Shown: positions 3,155 through 22,415 of the stretch, one piece after another
Layout of the letters: each line of letters starts with the position of its first letter
How positions within the stretch are numbered: position 1 is the stretch's first letter
IMG/VR virus record: IMGVR_UViG_3300047678_000567
Span: 1 to 27,134 of that record
Length of the DNA stretch: 27,134 bases
Direction: 5' to 3' (one strand)
From: a virus
Made by a program: the position numbers and the translations under genes
Notes under the pieces: model-generated
What the model saw: only the letters and a program-made list of their open reading frames with translations
Databases searched by the model: none
What the model was told of the DNA's origin: nothing

Positions 3155-3676
3155 TCAGGAGCCCGAATCGGGCTGCTCCTCCCACAGGACACCGTCGGTG
3201 TCCGGGTAGATCGTCGCGACGAACTGGACGGCGGCGATGTCCTGCTCGTTGTCGGTGACGTCGCCGTCGACGACGATCTCGGCCTGGTAGGCGGAGATCA
3301 GCCGGCGCACCTGGTCGCCGTCGCGGACCTCGAACGCGACCTTCACCCGCTCGGGCTTGGGCACCTTGATCTGGCCGCCGGTCGACCCGGGCCACATCAG
3401 CCGGTGCGTGGTCTCGTTGCGCTCGAAGCAGCGGAACGTGACCGTCTGCTTGAAGTTCCGCCGCGACGTGCGCATGAGGATCCCACCCCACGCGAAGTGG
3501 TCGGCGACGTCCTCGGACCGGCCGTGGACGAAGCCCTGCTCGCCGTCGAGGAGACCGACGAGGTCCCACTCGGTGCCGAACTCGGTGTCGACGTCGGTCG
3601 GCGCCTCGGCGTCGAGGTCGAAGCTGACGAACACGTCTGCGTCTTGCCACAGCCGTGCGTTCTGCGGATCTCCCAT
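3155..3676 (-). CDS. Major tail protein (tail tube)
   Basis: A 173-residue protein beginning MGDPQNARLWQDADVFVSFD, acidic throughout. It lies between the tail terminator and the chaperones, the standard place of the tube protein. Phrases such as D-L-D-A-E-A-P-T-D-V-D-T-E-F and F-V-A-T-I-Y-P-D-T-D-G resemble siphophage tube proteins that form stacked hexameric rings. The ATG at 3676 is preceded by AGAGGAGG eight bases upstream, one of the strongest ribosome-binding sites in the window, as expected for an abundant product. The gene starts after a gap of about 100 bases and is followed by a hairpin. Confidence 0.85.
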   Translation of the reverse strand: MGDPQNARLWQDADVFVSFDLDAEAPTDVDTEFGTEWDLVGLLDGEQGFVHGRSEDVADHFAWGGILMRTSRRNFKQTVTFRCFERNETTHRLMWPGSTGGQIKVPKPERVKVAFEVRDGDQVRRLISAYQAEIVVDGDVTDNEQDIAAVQFVATIYPDTDGVLWEEQPDSGS

Positions 3677-3773: not shown

Positions 3774-4172
3774 TCAGGACTCGTCGTCGATGGGGACAGT
3801 GCGCACAACGACCCTGGCGGTCGTCGCGGCGAGAGCGACACGGGTCTGCGGGTCGAAGCCCGGCAGCGGACCCGTGAGCGGGATGACGTTGACGATGCCC
3901 GGGGCATCGGTCGCGGCGAGTGTCCCGAGCGCGTCGCCGGCGAGCTGCTTCGCTGCCGACGGTGATCCGGCGCGGGCAACCAGCCGGACCGTGAAGTCGG
4001 CCTTGATCGGCCACACCACCGTCGGGGCGCCGTCGGACACCACCTCGAGATGTGGACCGGCCGCCGGCGTCCAGCCCTCGGGGACACCGACTCCGACGGT
4101 TGCGTCGACCAGCCCGTCGAGAGCATCGACGACGAGCCGCTCAACATCAGGAAGAGCGACGAGAGGCTTCAC
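3774..4172 (-). CDS. Tail terminator protein
   Basis: The 132-residue protein starts MKPLVALPDVERLVVDALDG and contains A-D-F-T-V-R-L-V-A-R-A and a conserved Trp-Pro (V-V-W-P-I-K). Family knowledge: proteins of this size between the gp10-like gene and the tube are tail terminators that cap the tube and join it to the head; the alpha/beta layout with an initial 'PDVERLVxDxL' helix is typical. The GTG start at 4172 overlaps the stop of the gp10-like gene by four bases (GTGA), implying coupled translation. Confidence 0.75.
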   Translation of the reverse strand: MKPLVALPDVERLVVDALDGLVDATVGVGVPEGWTPAAGPHLEVVSDGAPTVVWPIKADFTVRLVARAGSPSAAKQLAGDALGTLAATDAPGIVNVIPLTGPLPGFDPQTRVALAATTARVVVRTVPIDDES

Positions 4173-4441
4173 CGTGCCGTCACCTCGAGGCCGACACCCG
4201 CTGCAGCGCGGGTGAGGACGCCGTCGCGGACCTGCCAGAGCCGGCCGCGCGGATCACGGATCGTGACCGAGGCAGCGGTCCGGTCGGTGCGGTAGCTGTC
4301 GACGACCACGTCGACGTCAGACGGCAACTGGGCGCGCACCTGGGCGGCGACCTGTTCGGCCAACGCCCGCATCTGCTGGGCGGTCTCCGCCGAGTTCAGC
4401 AACGCCTTGATCCCTGCCGAGTCGAGCCGCACTTCCGCCAC
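4169..4441 (-). CDS. HK97 gp10-like (head-tail/tail completion) protein
   Basis: A 90-residue protein reading M-A-E-V-R-L-D-S-A-G-I-K-A-L-L, then V-V-V-D-S-Y-R-T-D-R-T-A-A-S-V-T-I and V-L-T-R-A-A-A-G-V-G-L-E-V. This pattern is common in the small actinophage proteins placed just before the tail terminator and often labelled HK97 gp10-like. The start is uncertain because several GTG codons lie in a row; I prefer 4441, which begins the conserved text. The first 125 bases overlap the end of the upstream glycosyltransferase frame, an unusually long overlap for this genome. Confidence 0.75.
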   Translation of the reverse strand: MAEVRLDSAGIKALLNSAETAQQMRALAEQVAAQVRAQLPSDVDVVVDSYRTDRTAASVTIRDPRGRLWQVRDGVLTRAAAGVGLEVTAR

Positions 4442-5912
4442 GACCACCACCACCCTTCGCTCTCCGGCCGGCGAGCGGCCCGCCAGGTTCGGACAGGATC
4501 GACCGGACCATGTCCGGGTCCGGCGGCGCCACCGACCGCAACCGGGGCAGCGCGCCGGTGGCATGCTCGACGCCGGCGGCCGCCTTGTAGCGCAGGCCGA
4601 GCTCGATGTTCGCCGCGTACTCGGGGAGATCGCGTTGCTTGTCGATGGCTCGGGGATGCCACCAGTGGAACGCCGGGCCGGGGATCCGGTCTGCCTCGCC
4701 GCACAGCGTGTTCGCCGCCAACCAGAACGCCCGATCCTCGCCGCCCCACGACGCGAACCGTTCGTCGAACCCGCCGACCGTGTCCCACACGGTGCGGGGC
4801 ACCATCACCGCACCGGACGCGTGGTGAGTCCACACCGTGGCGCCCTGCCGGGCCCGTTTCGGGCCGAACTCGACCCGGCCAGACAGCACCCGATCGGTGA
4901 ACACCCGCGGGATCTTCACGTACCGGTCGAACGCCAGCACGAGACGCTGCTGCTCGACGGCGAGATGGGCTGCCGCCCACAGCTGCTCGACAGGGACGAA
5001 CGTGTCGGCGTCGGCGAAGAACAGGCAGTCCCACCCGTCACCGGCGGCCACGGCGGCGGCGTTGCGGGCCGCGGACCGGTTCGGCCACGCCCCGCCCGTG
5101 GTGTCGTCGCCGACGTGCACCTCGAGGCCGTGGCGACGCCAGTAGTCGACCGTCCACAGGTACGACCGGGTCCGCCAGTCGTCACCACCGGTCCACGGGA
5201 CGCACACCGCCACCCGGTAGCGGCCCTCCATGCGTCGTCCGATCCATGACGCCCACTCAGCCGGGCTGTCGAAGTCGTCGGTCCAGTCGTCGATCACCGT
5301 CTGATTCCGGCAGCCGGCAGCGACTTTGAGGTCGTCGAGCCATGCGGTGCGGACACCGGCCATCGCCGCCATATGGGTGCGGATGTGTGTCGACGGGAGC
5401 CGACCGCGGCGCACCAGGTCGGCGAGCTGCGCGGCGACCTCGACCACACGGACGTGTTCGCCGGGGCCGAACGACACGGCGAACGACTCGTCCCACCGGT
5501 GACCGGTCACCTTCGACCGGCCGGGCCGGCGGAACACGTGGTAGGCGTCGCCAGGGTGGTCGCAGATCGTGTCGACCGCCGCCTGGGAGTACCAGACGTC
5601 ACCCCACACGATCACCGTCCGGCGATCCTCGGCCCACAGATGGCGGGTGTCGAGAAACTTGCCCATGTCGGACCCGCACGAGTTGATCTCGTCGAGCGCG
5701 ACACGACGGGCACCGGGCAAGTCGTAGCGTTCGTCCGGGCCGACCACCACCACCTCGTCGACGTTCGGATGGCCGGCGAACAGGCGAACGGCCCGGCCGA
5801 TCAACGTCTCCCCGTTGACGGTGACGAAGTGCTTGGGGTGGCCGAGGAACTGGCCGCCGTCAGCGTTCACCCAGCGGCGCCCGTCACCGTGAGCCAACAC
5901 GAGCACCCTCAC
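4317..5912 (-). CDS. Nucleotidyltransferase-like / glycosyltransferase fusion
   Basis: A 531-residue frame with two apparent domains. Residues 1 to about 225 resemble a sugar-phosphate nucleotidyltransferase: start MRVLVLAHGDG, then K-H-F-V-T-V-N-G-E-T-L-I-G-R-A-V (27-42), V-V-V-V-G-P-D (54-60) and I-V-W-G-D-V-W (101-107) with a candidate metal-binding Asp. Residues about 230-450 look like a GT-A glycosyltransferase: V-A-V-C-V-P-W-T (233-240), the DxD-type motif F-F-A-D-A-D-T (298-304), then G-G-F-D-E-R-F-A-S-W-G-G-E-D-R-A-F-W (380-397), the acceptor/Mn-site signature of GT2/GT27-like enzymes. It starts at GTG 5912, overlapping the methyltransferase stop (GTGA). Residues beyond about 488 are a low-complexity Gly/Arg tail overlapping the next gene and may not be functional. 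It probably makes and transfers a sugar; the acceptor is unknown. Confidence 0.85.
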   Translation of the reverse strand: MRVLVLAHGDGRRWVNADGGQFLGHPKHFVTVNGETLIGRAVRLFAGHPNVDEVVVVGPDERYDLPGARRVALDEINSCGSDMGKFLDTRHLWAEDRRTVIVWGDVWYSQAAVDTICDHPGDAYHVFRRPGRSKVTGHRWDESFAVSFGPGEHVRVVEVAAQLADLVRRGRLPSTHIRTHMAAMAGVRTAWLDDLKVAAGCRNQTVIDDWTDDFDSPAEWASWIGRRMEGRYRVAVCVPWTGGDDWRTRSYLWTVDYWRRHGLEVHVGDDTTGGAWPNRSAARNAAAVAAGDGWDCLFFADADTFVPVEQLWAAAHLAVEQQRLVLAFDRYVKIPRVFTDRVLSGRVEFGPKRARQGATVWTHHASGAVMVPRTVWDTVGGFDERFASWGGEDRAFWLAANTLCGEADRIPGPAFHWWHPRAIDKQRDLPEYAANIELGLRYKAAAGVEHATGALPRLRSVAPPDPDMVRSILSEPGGPLAGRRAKGGGGRGGSAARLGRDQGVAELGGDRPADAGVGRTGRRPGARPVAV

Positions 5913-6529
5913 GACAACCTCGCCGCGACCAGCCGTCCCGTGCGAGTCACCTCCACCGGGTGCACCCGGTCGATCCACTCGTCGACCGCCCGGACCACAC
6001 CGGGGAACTGGGTCGCCTTCGGCTCGAACCGGGTGTAGTCGTGGAAGCACACCCACGCCCCCAACGCGAGGTGCTGCGCCCACGCGTCGAGGTCGGCGCA
6101 CACGGACTCGTAGCGGTGGTCGGCGTCGACGAACAGCAACCCGACCGTCGGGCCCTGCCAGCCGGCAGCCACGTCCACCGTCGAGCCGTGATGCTCGACG
6201 ACGAGCGACTTCACCTTCGCACGAGCGACCTGCGCTCGGAACGTGTCGAGCGTCTCGGGCAGGTCGAAGCCGAGATGCTGGTACTCGCCCTGACCACCCA
6301 ACGTCCACAAGTCCACCGCGTGGACCTTCACCCCGGCGCCGGCCTTCGACCCGCGGGCGAGGAAGCACGTCGACTTGCCCCGGTTCGAGCCGAGCTCGAC
6401 GATGCACTCACCCGCAGGCACGAGGCTCGCGAGCCTGGCCAACCTGGCGCCCTCGCGCCGCCACAAGAAACCCTCGAACGTGTCGAGATCGGGGTGACGG
6501 TCGAGGTCCTGTTCGGTCGTGGTCCGCAC
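5909..6529 (-). CDS. SAM-dependent methyltransferase (class I)
   Basis: The 206-residue protein shows the class I SAM-binding motif I-V-E-L-G-S-N-R-G-K-S-T (43-54), the acidic end of strand 2 (H-A-V-D-L-W, 70-75) and L-L-F-V-D-A-D-H-R-Y-E-S-V-C-A-D-L-D-A-W (131-150), followed by C-F-H-D-Y (161-165). That arrangement is typical of the Methyltransf_24/CmcI-like group, often involved in sugar or small-molecule O-methylation. Start choice: the first GTG (6538) lies inside the ribosome-binding site, whereas GTG at 6529 stands 8 bases after AGAGGAGG (6545-6538). It is translationally coupled to the downstream glycosyltransferase. Its place inside the head-tail module suggests modification of a virion glycan rather than DNA (inference). 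Confidence 0.85.
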   Translation of the reverse strand: MRTTTEQDLDRHPDLDTFEGFLWRREGARLARLASLVPAGECIVELGSNRGKSTCFLARGSKAGAGVKVHAVDLWTLGGQGEYQHLGFDLPETLDTFRAQVARAKVKSLVVEHHGSTVDVAAGWQGPTVGLLFVDADHRYESVCADLDAWAQHLALGAWVCFHDYTRFEPKATQFPGVVRAVDEWIDRVHPVEVTRTGRLVAARLS

Positions 6530-6553
6530 CAGGAACACCTCCTCTGATCAGGG

Positions 6554-6895
6554 TCAGCCTTCGGCGCGTCGCAACGCGACCTCGACCCCACGGACCTGAC
6601 CTGTCCACGGGGACACCCACACACCGACGTCGCCCTCGACGTCGAACATCACACCTCGCCACCTGATCCGATCCGTGCTGCGCACATCGTGCGGCGGATC
6701 GGCCGCAGGGGCATACAGCGTCGCCCCGACGATCACGCCCGTCCGGGCCCTGTCGGACACGTCCGACGACCCACGAGGCGCCACCGCCACGTGCGACAGG
6801 TCGAACTCGACGACATCGCCGTCGACCGGGTCGCCGTACCGGTCCCGGCCGCCAGGAGCAGCACGGACCACGGTCACGGTCTGGTTGAGGTTCAC
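6554..6895 (-). CDS. Head closure (head-tail joining) protein
   Basis: A 113-residue, beta-rich protein with R-D-R-Y-G-D-P-V (17-24) near the N terminus and I-R-W-R-G-V-M-F-D-V-E-G-D-V later. 'DRYGxP' followed by a single beta-barrel-sized domain is typical of phage head closure/stopper proteins. It follows the connector gene, starts with GTG at 6895 with a GTGA overlap, and is the last head gene before the sugar/methyl cassette. Confidence 0.72.
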   Translation of the reverse strand: MNLNQTVTVVRAAPGGRDRYGDPVDGDVVEFDLSHVAVAPRGSSDVSDRARTGVIVGATLYAPAADPPHDVRSTDRIRWRGVMFDVEGDVGVWVSPWTGQVRGVEVALRRAEG

Positions 6896-7438: not shown

Positions 7439-8404
7439 TCAGCTCTCGTCGTCGAGGACGATCTTCACGGCGCGGACGAAGTAATCGTCCTCGTCGCCGA
7501 CCGGCGACTCCGGGTCGATGCCGGGCGTGAACCGGCCGTCCTCGTCGAACTGGCCGAAGTCGGTCACGACGTTGGTGCCGACCCACGCCTCCGTTGCGAG
7601 CACGTTGACGATGTCGGTCGGGTCGAGGACCTGGACCGCACGGATCGCGAACCCGCCCGCCGCCATCGTCTGACCCCACGGTGCACCGTTGGGGATCGCC
7701 GGCGCACGGCTCGACAGCGCGAACGCGGTCCGGTGGTAGGCGTACGCCTCGCCGGGCGGGAGCGCGTTCGTGACGAAGGGCTGGAACCCGGCCAGGCGCC
7801 CCATCTGCGCGTCGCGCAGCGCCGACGCGTCGCCGGTGCGGGCGATGTTCTCCTGCACCGTGGTGGCGTTGAGGATGAACTCCTCGACGTCCGCGCCGAC
7901 GGCGAGGAACCGGTCCGACTGCGGCACGTTGGCGAGGTTGAGCCGCTTGCGGGCCTCGCGCAGCGTCCCGATCGGGTCGGTCCCGTCGAGCGTCAGCGTG
8001 TGACCGGGCGCGTACGTCGCGTCGGTCATCAGCTCGGCGAGCTCGTCCTCGTAGCCGCGCACGATCGACCGCAGACACGGCGCCATCACCTGCTGCATGA
8101 AGTCGACCAGGTCGAGCGAGAACACCTCGTCGGTGACCTCGATGTCCTTGTACAGCCGCGACGACAGCGTGACGTCGACCTTGCGCTCGGCGAGCGAGTC
8201 GCGGCTGCGCGGACCACCCGAACGCAGCGCGTTCTTCTGCGACTGGGTGTAGGCCGGGAGCCGGATGCTGATCGTGTCGTTCTTCGCGCCGCGGAAGTCG
8301 CCGGCGGCGTCCCTCCACACGGTTGCCGGGAGGACGACCTCCCGCTCGAGCAGCGCGAGCGCGGTCGACACGACCCGCTCCGCCTTGATGGTCTGGACCG
8401 TCAT
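7439..8404 (-). CDS. Major capsid protein (P22 coat-like)
   Basis: The 321-residue protein begins MTVQTIKAERVVSTALALLE and contains A-T-V-W-R-D-A-A-G-D-F, D-T-I-S-I-R-L-P-A-Y, D-V-T-L-S-S-R-L-Y-K-D-I-E-V-T-D-E and A-Y-A-Y-H-R-T-A-F-A-L. This is the pattern of actinophage coat proteins in the P22-coat-like branch of the HK97 fold. It follows the scaffold gene. The ATG at 8404 is preceded by AGAGGAGG (8417-8410), and a large hairpin follows the stop. The length is normal for a coat without a fused protease. Confidence 0.92.
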   Translation of the reverse strand: MTVQTIKAERVVSTALALLEREVVLPATVWRDAAGDFRGAKNDTISIRLPAYTQSQKNALRSGGPRSRDSLAERKVDVTLSSRLYKDIEVTDEVFSLDLVDFMQQVMAPCLRSIVRGYEDELAELMTDATYAPGHTLTLDGTDPIGTLREARKRLNLANVPQSDRFLAVGADVEEFILNATTVQENIARTGDASALRDAQMGRLAGFQPFVTNALPPGEAYAYHRTAFALSSRAPAIPNGAPWGQTMAAGGFAIRAVQVLDPTDIVNVLATEAWVGTNVVTDFGQFDEDGRFTPGIDPESPVGDEDDYFVRAVKIVLDDES

Positions 8405-14177: not shown

Positions 14178-14314
14178 CACACTGCCCCGGTCCGCACCTG
14201 AGGCGCAGACTGGACATCGTGAACGTCACCGTACTGAACTCGTGAGCGCGAGTGGTGGATACCCGCAACGACCTGCGGCGACGAGGCCAGTACGAATCTC
14301 GCCGGCCCGATCAT
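14177..14314 (-). CDS. Hypothetical small protein (45 aa)
   Basis: A 45-codon frame that exactly fills the space between two genes, with an ATG at 14314 overlapping the upstream stop (ATGA) and a stop overlapping the next start (TGATG). It reads MIGPARFVLASSPQVVAGIH and ends in A-P-Q-V-R-T-G-A-V. The third-base GC is lower than in its neighbours, so it may be a spacer rather than a selected gene. No domain recognised. Confidence 0.45.
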   Translation of the reverse strand: MIGPARFVLASSPQVVAGIHHSRSRVQYGDVHDVQSAPQVRTGAV

Positions 14315-15003
14315 CGCGACACGCTCCCGTCACGCACGCGGACGTAGCCACGGCGGAGGTAGTCGAGCATCTCGCTGCGCTCGGGGAGCCGACGATGCGC
14401 CCGGGTGAAGTCGTACACCCACCGGCACACCGGCCGTTCCTCCGGCCACGGCTGCGCCAACACACCAGCGAACGTCGTCGACCGCCACGGCGACCACGTG
14501 TCGTCCCACTGCAGGCCGTGCACCACCCGGGCGACATGGCACTGCGGTGCGTCCTCGACCGGGGCCGTGTCACGCAGCCGGTCGAACCGGTCACACACCG
14601 CCTCGATGTCGTGCACCGTGCGCACCAGCCGCTCGAGCAACGGGACGAGCTCACGCGCCTGGCCGAGGTACGGGTCACGGATCTTGTTGCGGGCCTCGGC
14701 GACGGCGACGGCGGCGAGCTCGGTCGACGACGTCGCCAACCAGTCGGGCCCGTCGTCACCGTCGACACGCATCTGCATCCTGGCGCCCTTCCCCGATCCC
14801 GGCGAGCCCGACAACGACGACCGAGATGGAAACCCATCCGGCCGAGCCGACCCCGCCGCCGCCACACGGAACACCTCACGACAGCGACGCAACAACAACT
14901 CGACCGCCGGCACACGCTCGGGCCGACGACCATCACCCTCCACCGCCACCGGCCGCACCACCGTCTGCCGGACACGATCCAACTCGCGCTCCCACCTCGA
15001 CAT
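14311..15003 (-). CDS. Hypothetical protein (230 aa) after replication protein
   Basis: Family not recognised. It is a basic, largely helical protein starting MSRWERELDRVRQTVVRPVA. Residues 65-73 read G-S-P-G-S-G-K-G, which looks like a P-loop but lacks the Ser/Thr after the Lys-Gly, and no Walker B is apparent. Residues 95-150 are helical (E-A-R-N-K-I-R-D, L-V-P-L-L-E-R-L-V-R-T-V-H-D-I-E-A-V). The C-terminal part holds a Trp-rich piece (C-R-W-V-Y-D-F-T-R-A-H-R-R-L-P-E). The ATG at 15003 overlaps the replication-protein stop by one base, suggesting a shared role in replication or regulation. Confidence 0.75.
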   Translation of the reverse strand: MSRWERELDRVRQTVVRPVAVEGDGRRPERVPAVELLLRRCREVFRVAAAGSARPDGFPSRSSLSGSPGSGKGARMQMRVDGDDGPDWLATSSTELAAVAVAEARNKIRDPYLGQARELVPLLERLVRTVHDIEAVCDRFDRLRDTAPVEDAPQCHVARVVHGLQWDDTWSPWRSTTFAGVLAQPWPEERPVCRWVYDFTRAHRRLPERSEMLDYLRRGYVRVRDGSVSR

Positions 15004-16570: not shown

Positions 16571-17422
16571 TCACGTCGGAGCGGCCACCTCGACCAGTTC
16601 GGCGTGCGCTGCGGTGAGGGAGTCGAGCCAGGCCTGCTCGTAGTCGGCCGGCTCGTAGCCGAGCCGGATCCAGTCGTCAAGGAGCTCGCGGTCGTCGTCC
16701 TCCGCCCGCAGCCAGGTCGTCCAGTAGCCGCGTTGGGCGGCGGGGTGGTCGGCGGCGGCGAACGCGATGGCAGCAGCGTCGTGGAGCGCGGCGACGGCGA
16801 TCGTCAACGCCGGGTCGGCTGTGCACACCTCGGTGCGGGTGGCGCCCGGCCGGCCACCGACGGTCGTCACGATCATGTCCCCGTCGAGGTACACCACGTT
16901 GCCGATCGCGAGTTGGGTGGTGATCCACGCGAAGCCGACCTCGACGACGGTGTCGCGCTGTTCCCGTGCAGCGCGGGCGAGGGTGGCACGGCGTGCTTCG
17001 ATCGTCGGGAGGACCAGTGCTTCGGTGGTCTCGCGGACGTTTAGCGTCGTCGACACCGGCGTAGCGGCGGTCGCAGCGGCGGTCGCTGCGTCGGGGGCAG
17101 GGGCGGGCTTGGGCCCGTACCAGGTCACGCTCGTGTCGCGGTCGTGGAGGTACCAGTGGGTGGCGTCGGGGCGCTTCACCTTCTGCAGCCGGTCGGTCCA
17201 CGGGTCGGTGGTGCGGGGCAGACCCGACTTTTTGGCCTGCTCGAGCGCCTTGGCGCGCTTGCGGGCCAGGATGAGGTCGTTGATCGCGTTCGCGATTGCC
17301 CAGTCCTGCACCGGCCTCTCCCGGTTGAGACCCGCCTTCGCCGTGTTCGCGACCTGCTTGCAGACGGTGTCGACGTCGCCCTCGTCGAGATCGGCGATCT
17401 GCTCGGCCTGGCGGATCGTCAA
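16571..17422 (-). CDS. Hypothetical protein (283 aa) downstream of ParB-like gene
   Basis: No named family recognised. The N terminus is helical (MTIRQAEQIADLDEGDVDTV), basic near 50-68 (R-K-R-A-K-A-L-E-Q-A-K-K-S-G). An Ala/Thr/Pro linker lies around 108-125. A globular C-terminal half includes V-G-F-A-W-I-T-T-Q-L-A-I-G-N-V-V-Y-L-D-G and E-Q-A-W-L-D-S-L. Translation probably starts at TTG 17422, which overlaps the ParB-like stop (TTGA) with GGAG five bases upstream. The coupling suggests it is made in fixed ratio with that protein; a role as its partner or regulator is inference. Confidence 0.7.
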   Translation of the reverse strand: MTIRQAEQIADLDEGDVDTVCKQVANTAKAGLNRERPVQDWAIANAINDLILARKRAKALEQAKKSGLPRTTDPWTDRLQKVKRPDATHWYLHDRDTSVTWYGPKPAPAPDAATAAATAATPVSTTLNVRETTEALVLPTIEARRATLARAAREQRDTVVEVGFAWITTQLAIGNVVYLDGDMIVTTVGGRPGATRTEVCTADPALTIAVAALHDAAAIAFAAADHPAAQRGYWTTWLRAEDDDRELLDDWIRLGYEPADYEQAWLDSLTAAHAELVEVAAPT

Positions 17423-18036: not shown

Positions 18037-18269
18037 CTCGTTCCTCCAGGGTTCGGTGGCGGCCACGGACACACCGCAGCCGCCGGGGTATCAGGGACAT
18101 CGACCAGCCCGTGCCGGTCGAGCAGCTCGGCGACACGCTCCGCCACCACCCGCTCCGCGCACAACAACAGCGGCGCCGACCGGTCATGGCCGACGACCAC
18201 GGTCCAGCCGGCGAACACCACCACCACCGGTCGCTGCTCGTGCACATGGGGACGATCCGGACACGTCAT
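18033..18269 (-). CDS. Hypothetical protein (78 aa)
   Basis: Not recognised. It reads MTCPDRPHVHEQRPVVVVFA, then G-W-T-V-V-V-G-H-D-R-S-A-P-L-L-L-C-A-E-R-V-V-A-E-R-V-A-E-L-L-D-R-H-G, ending in a Pro-rich stretch. One short beta region followed by an amphipathic helix would make a small alpha/beta unit. The ATG at 18269 overlaps the ASCH-like stop (ATGA), and its stop overlaps the TTG start of the ParB-like gene. Confidence 0.68.
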   Translation of the reverse strand: MTCPDRPHVHEQRPVVVVFAGWTVVVGHDRSAPLLLCAERVVAERVAELLDRHGLVDVPDTPAAAVCPWPPPNPGGTS

Positions 18270-18661
18270 CGCCGACGCCCATGTTCGGAATCGTCGAGGT
18301 ACCGCCACTCGATGCGTCGGCACACGATCGCCAGGCGTTCGAGGCCGTCAGTGGTGCGGTAGCCGTGAGACCGCACCCACATGTCGACGAACTCTGGATG
18401 TGTCAGGTGGTCGAGGCCCTCCTTGGAGAGCTCGCCCGGCATGATGCTGAGGGCGAGGGGCTCGAGCCGGTTCGAGACGACCTCGACGTCGGCGAGGACC
18501 CGCTGCTTCGCGCCCTTCGGCAGCCCCATCCCCTTCTCGACGAGGGTCAGGTGGTCGCCGGGCTGGAGCGTCGTCCACGTGTCAGCGCGGCGGCGGGTGA
18601 CGGTCTTGGCGCGGTTGAGCACGGCGTCGACCGTGAGCGCGCACGACATGCGACGAGTCAT
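18266..18661 (-). CDS. ASCH-like (PUA-fold) protein
   Basis: The 131-residue protein has R-A-K-T-V-T-R-R near the N terminus and L-Q-P-G-D-H-L-T-L-V-E-K-G-M-G-L-P-K-G (32-50), then R-V-L-A-D-V-E-V-V-S-N-R-L-E-P-L (54-69) and Y-R-T-T-D-G-L-E-R-L near the end. The layout of an early 'K-T-V-T-R-R' followed by 'P-G-D-x-L-T-L-V-x-K' is typical of phage ASCH-domain proteins, an RNA- or modified-base-binding fold related to PUA. Its substrate is unknown. The ATG at 18661 overlaps the upstream stop by four bases. Confidence 0.7.
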   Translation of the reverse strand: MTRRMSCALTVDAVLNRAKTVTRRRADTWTTLQPGDHLTLVEKGMGLPKGAKQRVLADVEVVSNRLEPLALSIMPGELSKEGLDHLTHPEFVDMWVRSHGYRTTDGLERLAIVCRRIEWRYLDDSEHGRRR

Positions 18662-18984
18662 CGCCGGTCCCTCGGGCGTCGCGTCGCGAACGTGACGACC
18701 GGGTGCGGTGCACCACGCCGGATCTCTGCGTCGAGCTTGTCGGCCACGACGGCGTGGGCTGCGGGCCCGAACAGCAGCTCGACCTTGTCGAGGCCCTCGC
18801 CGGGCTCGAACCAGATGATCGACACCTGAGTGCCAGGCACATGAGGGAGAACGTCGTGGGCCTCTGCGAGAGCGTGACGCGTCCACTCGTCGGTGACGTC
18901 GGGCAACACACCCGGCACCACCGGCCACCGCTCACGGGCACGCGCCCGATCCTCCCGACGCATCCGGGCCCGCAACGCGCTCAT
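18658..18984 (-). CDS. Hypothetical protein (108 aa)
   Basis: Not recognised. A basic N terminus (MSALRARMRREDRARARERW) precedes an alpha/beta-like body: V-S-I-I-W-F-E-P-G-E-G-L-D-K-V-E-L-L-F-G-P-A-A-H-A-V-V-A-D-K-L, then a basic tail. The ATG at 18984 overlaps the RusA-like stop (ATGA), and the gene is coupled to the downstream ASCH-like gene in the same way. Confidence 0.68.
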   Translation of the reverse strand: MSALRARMRREDRARARERWPVVPGVLPDVTDEWTRHALAEAHDVLPHVPGTQVSIIWFEPGEGLDKVELLFGPAAHAVVADKLDAEIRRGAPHPVVTFATRRPRDRR

Positions 18985-22336: not shown

Positions 22337-22415
22337 TGGTGCCCCATCCCGGAGTCGAACCGGACCCGACCGCAGTTGCCGTGCGTCGTCGTGGCACCCG
22401 TCGTGCCAATGGGGC
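22337..22415 (-). tRNA. tRNA-like gene (cloverleaf-like; anticodon unclear, GCA possible)
   Basis: Read on the minus strand, the 79-nt sequence has a perfect 7-bp acceptor stem (GCCCCAT/ATGGGGC), discriminator A and an encoded CCA (a second CCA follows). The T arm is normal: TCCGG, TTCGACT loop, CCGGG. Between them are a D-like hairpin (GGCAC-GACGG-GTGCC) and an anticodon-like hairpin with loop CGGCAAC, in which GCA would be read as a Cys anticodon. Two points are abnormal: position 33 is G, not the near-universal U, and the linkers around the D and anticodon arms have atypical lengths. It may be an unusual or decayed tRNA, or a tRNA-shaped processing signal. Confidence 0.6.

Follow-up and report, generated by a model that had tools for sequence, protein, structure and literature searches.

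Why would a phage keep two enzyme genes in the middle of its head-tail operon? The window analysed here is the whole of a 27,134-base virus record from IMG/VR, in which the structural genes are all on the minus strand. As transcribed, they run from small terminase, large terminase, portal, a scaffold-position gene, capsid, adaptor Ad1 and head closure Hc1 through a methyltransferase gene (MT) and a nucleotidyltransferase-glycosyltransferase fusion gene (NT-GT) to the gp10-like neck protein, the tail terminator, the major tail protein and the tape measure. The large terminase and the scaffold were assigned from position and size, not from a family search. The original prediction held that the phage makes an activated sugar, attaches it to a virion protein and caps or methylates it, and that the fusion of activation and transfer in one protein would render this decoration system compact and self-contained.

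The pair is indeed present as two coupled minus-strand genes between Hc1 (6554-6895; phrog_501, E=2e-24) and the gp10-like gene (4169-4441; phrog_8079, E=2e-20). MT spans positions 5909-6529 and NT-GT positions 4317-5912, and they overlap by 4 nt (GTGA), an arrangement of translational coupling. For MT, translation more likely begins at the GTG at 6529 than at an upstream GTG (6538), which overlaps the SD sequence. The ribosome-binding site of MT, AGAGGAGG (6538-6545), is an octamer shared with four other genes of the window, as had been claimed: five sites were found, on the minus strand only, and they precede MT and the tube, capsid, scaffold-position and small terminase genes (5 observed versus 0.55 expected; none of 100 shuffled sequences has as many). 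The GC content of MT and NT-GT is 0.69-0.71, and their GC and codon use are like those of the flanking genes. Elsewhere on the same strand, the window contains a tRNA-Cys (GCA) gene (22337-22415) and, in its replication-side region, long open frames without PHROG match (14311-15003, 16571-17422 and 18266-18928).

Predicted folds and activities of NT-GT and MT

The NT domain (5235-5912) matches PF12804 NTP_transf_3 (E=6e-6, at the cut-off) and, over residues 2-222, phrog_33187 (E=1e-19). It carries the motifs GDGRR, PK, GD and IDDWTDDFD. Across the NT family, GxGxR, PK and GD are conserved together with the C-terminal IDDWTDDFD signature, the PK lysine being substituted in locus L012 and in Streptomyces phage Wentworth. 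The GT-A domain (4578-5216) matches PF02709 Glyco_transf_7C (E=4e-6) and, over residues 233-420, phrog_1721 'galactosyl transferase' (E=2e-26), with DXD at residues 301-303, WGGED at 389-393 and HWWH at 416-419. DXD, WGxE(D) and two histidines are conserved in the GT, with divergence in L005 and L011. The C-terminal tail (4317-4454; ~45 residues) has no counterpart in relatives, is of low confidence in the structural model and overlaps the gp10-like neck gene by 125 nt.

Both the NTP-transferase and the GT folds, on which the original prediction depended, are predicted with good confidence in the AlphaFold2 model of NT-GT (mean pLDDT 81). Its matches in the PDB are nucleotidyltransferases, namely CTP:inositol-1-P cytidylyltransferase (IPCT; TM 0.63 on target), GMPP, ST0452, GlmU and IspD. 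In a viral library, it matches phage GT-A galactosyltransferases (TM 0.78-0.84 on target), including that of Gordonia phage Syleon (TM 0.78 on target). By motifs and modelled fold, the NT domain appears to be of the NTP_transf_3 / sugar-1-phosphate nucleotidyltransferase type, with NDP-sugar synthesis as its putative activity. It has the fold and the GxGxR / PK / GD motifs in common with ST0452, GlmU and IPCT, whereas the IDDWTDDFD signature and the fusion to a GT set it apart from them. The DXD and WGxED motifs found in the second domain, together with its modelled fold, point to a GT-A glycosyltransferase (Glyco_transf_7C / GT27-like).

MT is a predicted class-I SAM-dependent methyltransferase (PF13578 Methyltransf_24, E=4e-22) and, judging from its sequence relatives, a probable sugar O-methyltransferase. 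Its best PDB match by sequence is MeT1 (6g7d, E=4e-7), the methylmannose polysaccharide 1-O-methyltransferase of Mycolicibacterium hassiacum, which acts as a 1-O-methyltransferase of mannosides (PMC9883506). In this closest solved structure, DGGH/HD-type motifs line up with DADH/HD; on the other hand, identity is ~20% and the substrate of MeT1 is a host polysaccharide, not a virion. The MT model (pLDDT 58) is of low confidence because it was built from only two sequences, and its fold matches therefore carry little weight; the sequence matches support SAM class I. PHROG assigns MT to phrog_2675, labelled 'DNA methyltransferase'. We rejected this label as misleading, since MT has no Pfam match to DNA methyltransferases, its best matches being small-molecule O-methyltransferases and MeT1. 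A full-length member of the family, Pas34 (L028:7083-8873), is a GT-methyltransferase fusion that adjoins another GT, and the family label looks wrong there as well.

Recurrence in other phages and relation to Che8

The same pair recurs in the structural module of other phages. In L002, MT and NT-GT lie directly after the capsid gene and before the head-tail connector, and are respectively 67% and 55% identical to those of the window. The portal, protease and capsid of L002 belong to families other than the window's, and the head genes are non-alignable; a search for relatives of the L002 capsid returned that capsid alone. In L024, a related NT-GT, whose GT domain belongs to phrog_854, lies between Ad1 and a capsid gene whose product is 37% identical to the window capsid. 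A scan of genome contigs for the NT found only two small ones, L024, which is phage, and L025.

The NT-GT domain order is found in the window and in L002, L003, L018, L024, L005 and L011, and is reversed (GT-NT) in L025. In L006, NT is fused to GT25, and in L012 it is fused to an FkbM methyltransferase, beside a GT. An FkbM methyltransferase also precedes NT-GT in L005 and L011, with a tape-measure-sized gene downstream. Genes 32-34 of Wentworth encode a GT, an NT and an FkbM methyltransferase after a large late gene. Wentworth resembles the window in its NT family, in the GT and MT neighbours, in their location downstream of late genes and in a tube protein ending in AGS. It differs in that the three genes are separate and that the GT and MT are of other families, their role being putative. 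From this exchange of fusion partners among loci, we argue for a common pathway of NT, GT and MT.

Two further arrangements were observed. At L004:7656-10108, myo-inositol-1-phosphate synthase, NT and a GT25-like enzyme are encoded consecutively, possibly as a phage CDP-inositol or similar pathway. At L215:4085-6180 and in related uncultured phages (G010, G012, L063 and L072), a two-GT fusion lies by an FkbM methyltransferase near the capsid gene, and the capsids end in Ser.

To our knowledge, reports of phage virions carrying glycans are recent and mainly concern mycobacteriophages. The GT family of the window (phrog_1721) is that of Che8 gp109 (33% identity, E=5e-10) and the GT family of L024 (phrog_854) is that of Che8 gp110, while Che8 gp108 is a GT-MT fusion. 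Glycans on the Che8 capsid are reported in PMC11256854, and PMC12619734 places those of mycobacteriophage capsid and tail tube at the C-termini; for mycobacteriophage virion glycosylation, both papers cite Freeman et al. 2023. A phrog_854 GT was present in 36/36 tested close relatives of Che8; at the loci read, the capsid terminates in KTGS and the tube in SDGS. The likeness to Che8 (gp108-gp110) thus comprises phrog_1721 and phrog_854 GTs, a GT combined with a methyltransferase, and capsid and tube proteins ending in Ser. However, the Che8 GT genes stand at the far genome end with no NT beside them, whereas the window has an NT-GT fusion that lies in the head-tail operon and is coupled to an MT from a different family. 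Because the GT genes of Che8 are distant from its capsid gene, we rejected the head-tail position as proof by itself and regard the position of the cassette as supportive.

C-terminal serines of capsid and tube proteins

The major capsid protein of the window (7439-8404, minus strand; phrog_283, E=7e-43) ends in KIVLDDES, its last Ser codon being at 7442-7444, and the major tail (tube) protein (3155-3676, minus strand; phrog_117, E=1.5e-24) ends in EEQPDSGS. In both, the terminal residues (DDES, DSGS) could accept an O-linked glycan. Terminal serines were likewise seen in other GT-bearing phages: Che8 (capsid KTGS, tube SDGS), L002 (NFS and VGS), L024 (NGS), L011 (GSGS) and the Wentworth tube (AGS). 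The C-terminus of the tail terminator (3774-4172, minus strand), DDES, consists of the same four residues as that of the capsid.

The association was examined in 80 capsid homologues from viral contigs, whose flanks or whole contigs were scanned for GT and sugar-type MT genes. All 20 of the 20 GT/MT-positive records (18 new ones, the window and L024) have a capsid ending in Ser. After clustering at 90% identity, which is a rough phylogenetic correction, a C-terminal Ser was found in 17/17 clusters with linked GT/MT versus 7/30 without, the GT-negative records being partly fragments (Fisher p=1.3e-7, for a rule found after looking). Without the window and L024, the association gives p=5e-7; with clustering at 70%, 60% and 50% identity, it gives p=2e-4, 0.003 and 0.045, respectively. 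Some Ser-ending capsids come without a detected GT, and most of those records are fragments. One non-Ser positive cluster was encountered, in which L045 ends in TLGS and has a GT fragment directly downstream, whereas its siblings, 78-80% identical, end in TLGA and have none.

The serine is characteristic of particular proteins: among positive records, the tube ends in Ser in 5/5 cases, as against 0/18 for the portal, 0/14 for terL and 1/17 for Ad1. In the tube and the capsid, terminal serines tend to occur together (p=0.007). A weaker form of the association recurred in another capsid family, phrog_2263, with a Ser end in 7/9 positive versus 9/39 negative clusters (p=0.004); the two positive exceptions end in Thr, which is the commonest ending in this family. 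The families searched revealed no GT in D29, Bxb1, TM4 or Giles, and none of these phages has a Ser-ending capsid. Sephiroth, whose capsid ends in SA, and Fionnbharth, whose tube ends in SV, are partial exceptions.

Probable virion glycosylation and its alternatives

It is likely, in our judgement, that the cassette is a virion-glycosylation unit co-produced with the late structural proteins, for which we infer the sugar, the linkage, the acceptor, the activities and the order of steps. From a sugar-1-phosphate or a similar compound, the NT domain would make an NDP-sugar. The GT-A domain fused to it would then transfer the sugar to capsid and tail-tube subunits, or extend a glycan on them, and MT would O-methylate the transferred sugar. 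The C-terminal Ser common to capsid (DDES) and tube (DSGS) would be the most likely attachment site. Folds, recurrence, the GT families held in common with Che8 and the covariation of C-termini make the decoration and methylation of a virion protein the best-supported reading, and in this the original prediction fared well; the NT product is a putative donor for the fused GT. The notion of a compact, self-contained system stands for compactness, the folds for sugar activation and transfer being fused, and not for self-containment, as no sugar-phosphate biosynthesis gene was recognised among the scanned genes of the window.

Three alternatives are less likely than virion glycosylation. Phage glycosyltransferases altering host surface glycans are known, and the enzymes could alter the glycans of the host wall, either late in infection or in a lysogen, for example for superinfection exclusion. 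In L007 and L009, NT has other GTs as neighbours and no structural module is evident around it, and in L004 it lies beside the inositol-phosphate synthase, as this explanation would have it. We nevertheless consider it unlikely for the window, where no flippase, membrane-anchor or lipid-carrier gene was recognised beside MT and NT-GT, where the genes are coupled and preceded by a late-gene ribosome-binding site, and where GT families are in common with Che8; the covariation of capsid and tube C-termini with GT/MT enzymes also argues against it.

An improbable variant is that the group placed on the virion is not an ordinary sugar, NT being a cytidylyltransferase for inositol-1-phosphate, glycerol-phosphate or phosphocholine. 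Profile and fold matches to CTP:inositol-1-phosphate cytidylyltransferase and to LicC score like those to sugar enzymes, and the L004 NT follows myo-inositol-1-phosphate synthase. Yet NT profile scores are alike for sugar, inositol and choline nucleotidyltransferases, so that sugar-1-P nucleotidyltransferases do equally well, and the glycosyltransferases fused or adjacent to NT are of GT-A, GT25 or GT-B type, enzymes that use NDP-sugars.

Least credible is DNA hypermodification, with the GT glycosylating a modified base and MT methylating DNA: the phrog_2675 label and the phage GTs acting on DNA that are cited in PMC12619734 would agree with it, but MT resembles small-molecule O-methyltransferases and MeT1 rather than DNA methyltransferases, the phrog_2675 member Pas34 combines a GT with a methyltransferase next to another GT, and no base-modification gene was found among the scanned genes of the window.

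Overall, the sequence comparisons point to phage virion glycosylation in a new form, whose enzymes would decorate the virus particle itself. A C-terminal Ser tag on phage capsid and tube proteins could, more generally, be a widespread acceptor for virion O-glycosylation served by interchangeable GTs, with one polypeptide here activating and transferring the sugar and its partner methylating it; we hold this generalisation to be nearly as likely as not. With NT-GT(-MT) cassettes, virion glycosylation would reach uncultured phages whose head genes are otherwise unlike, and would gain sugar activation and probable methylation. From the serine association would follow a simple sequence rule for predicting glycosylated phages and the residue that bears the glycan.
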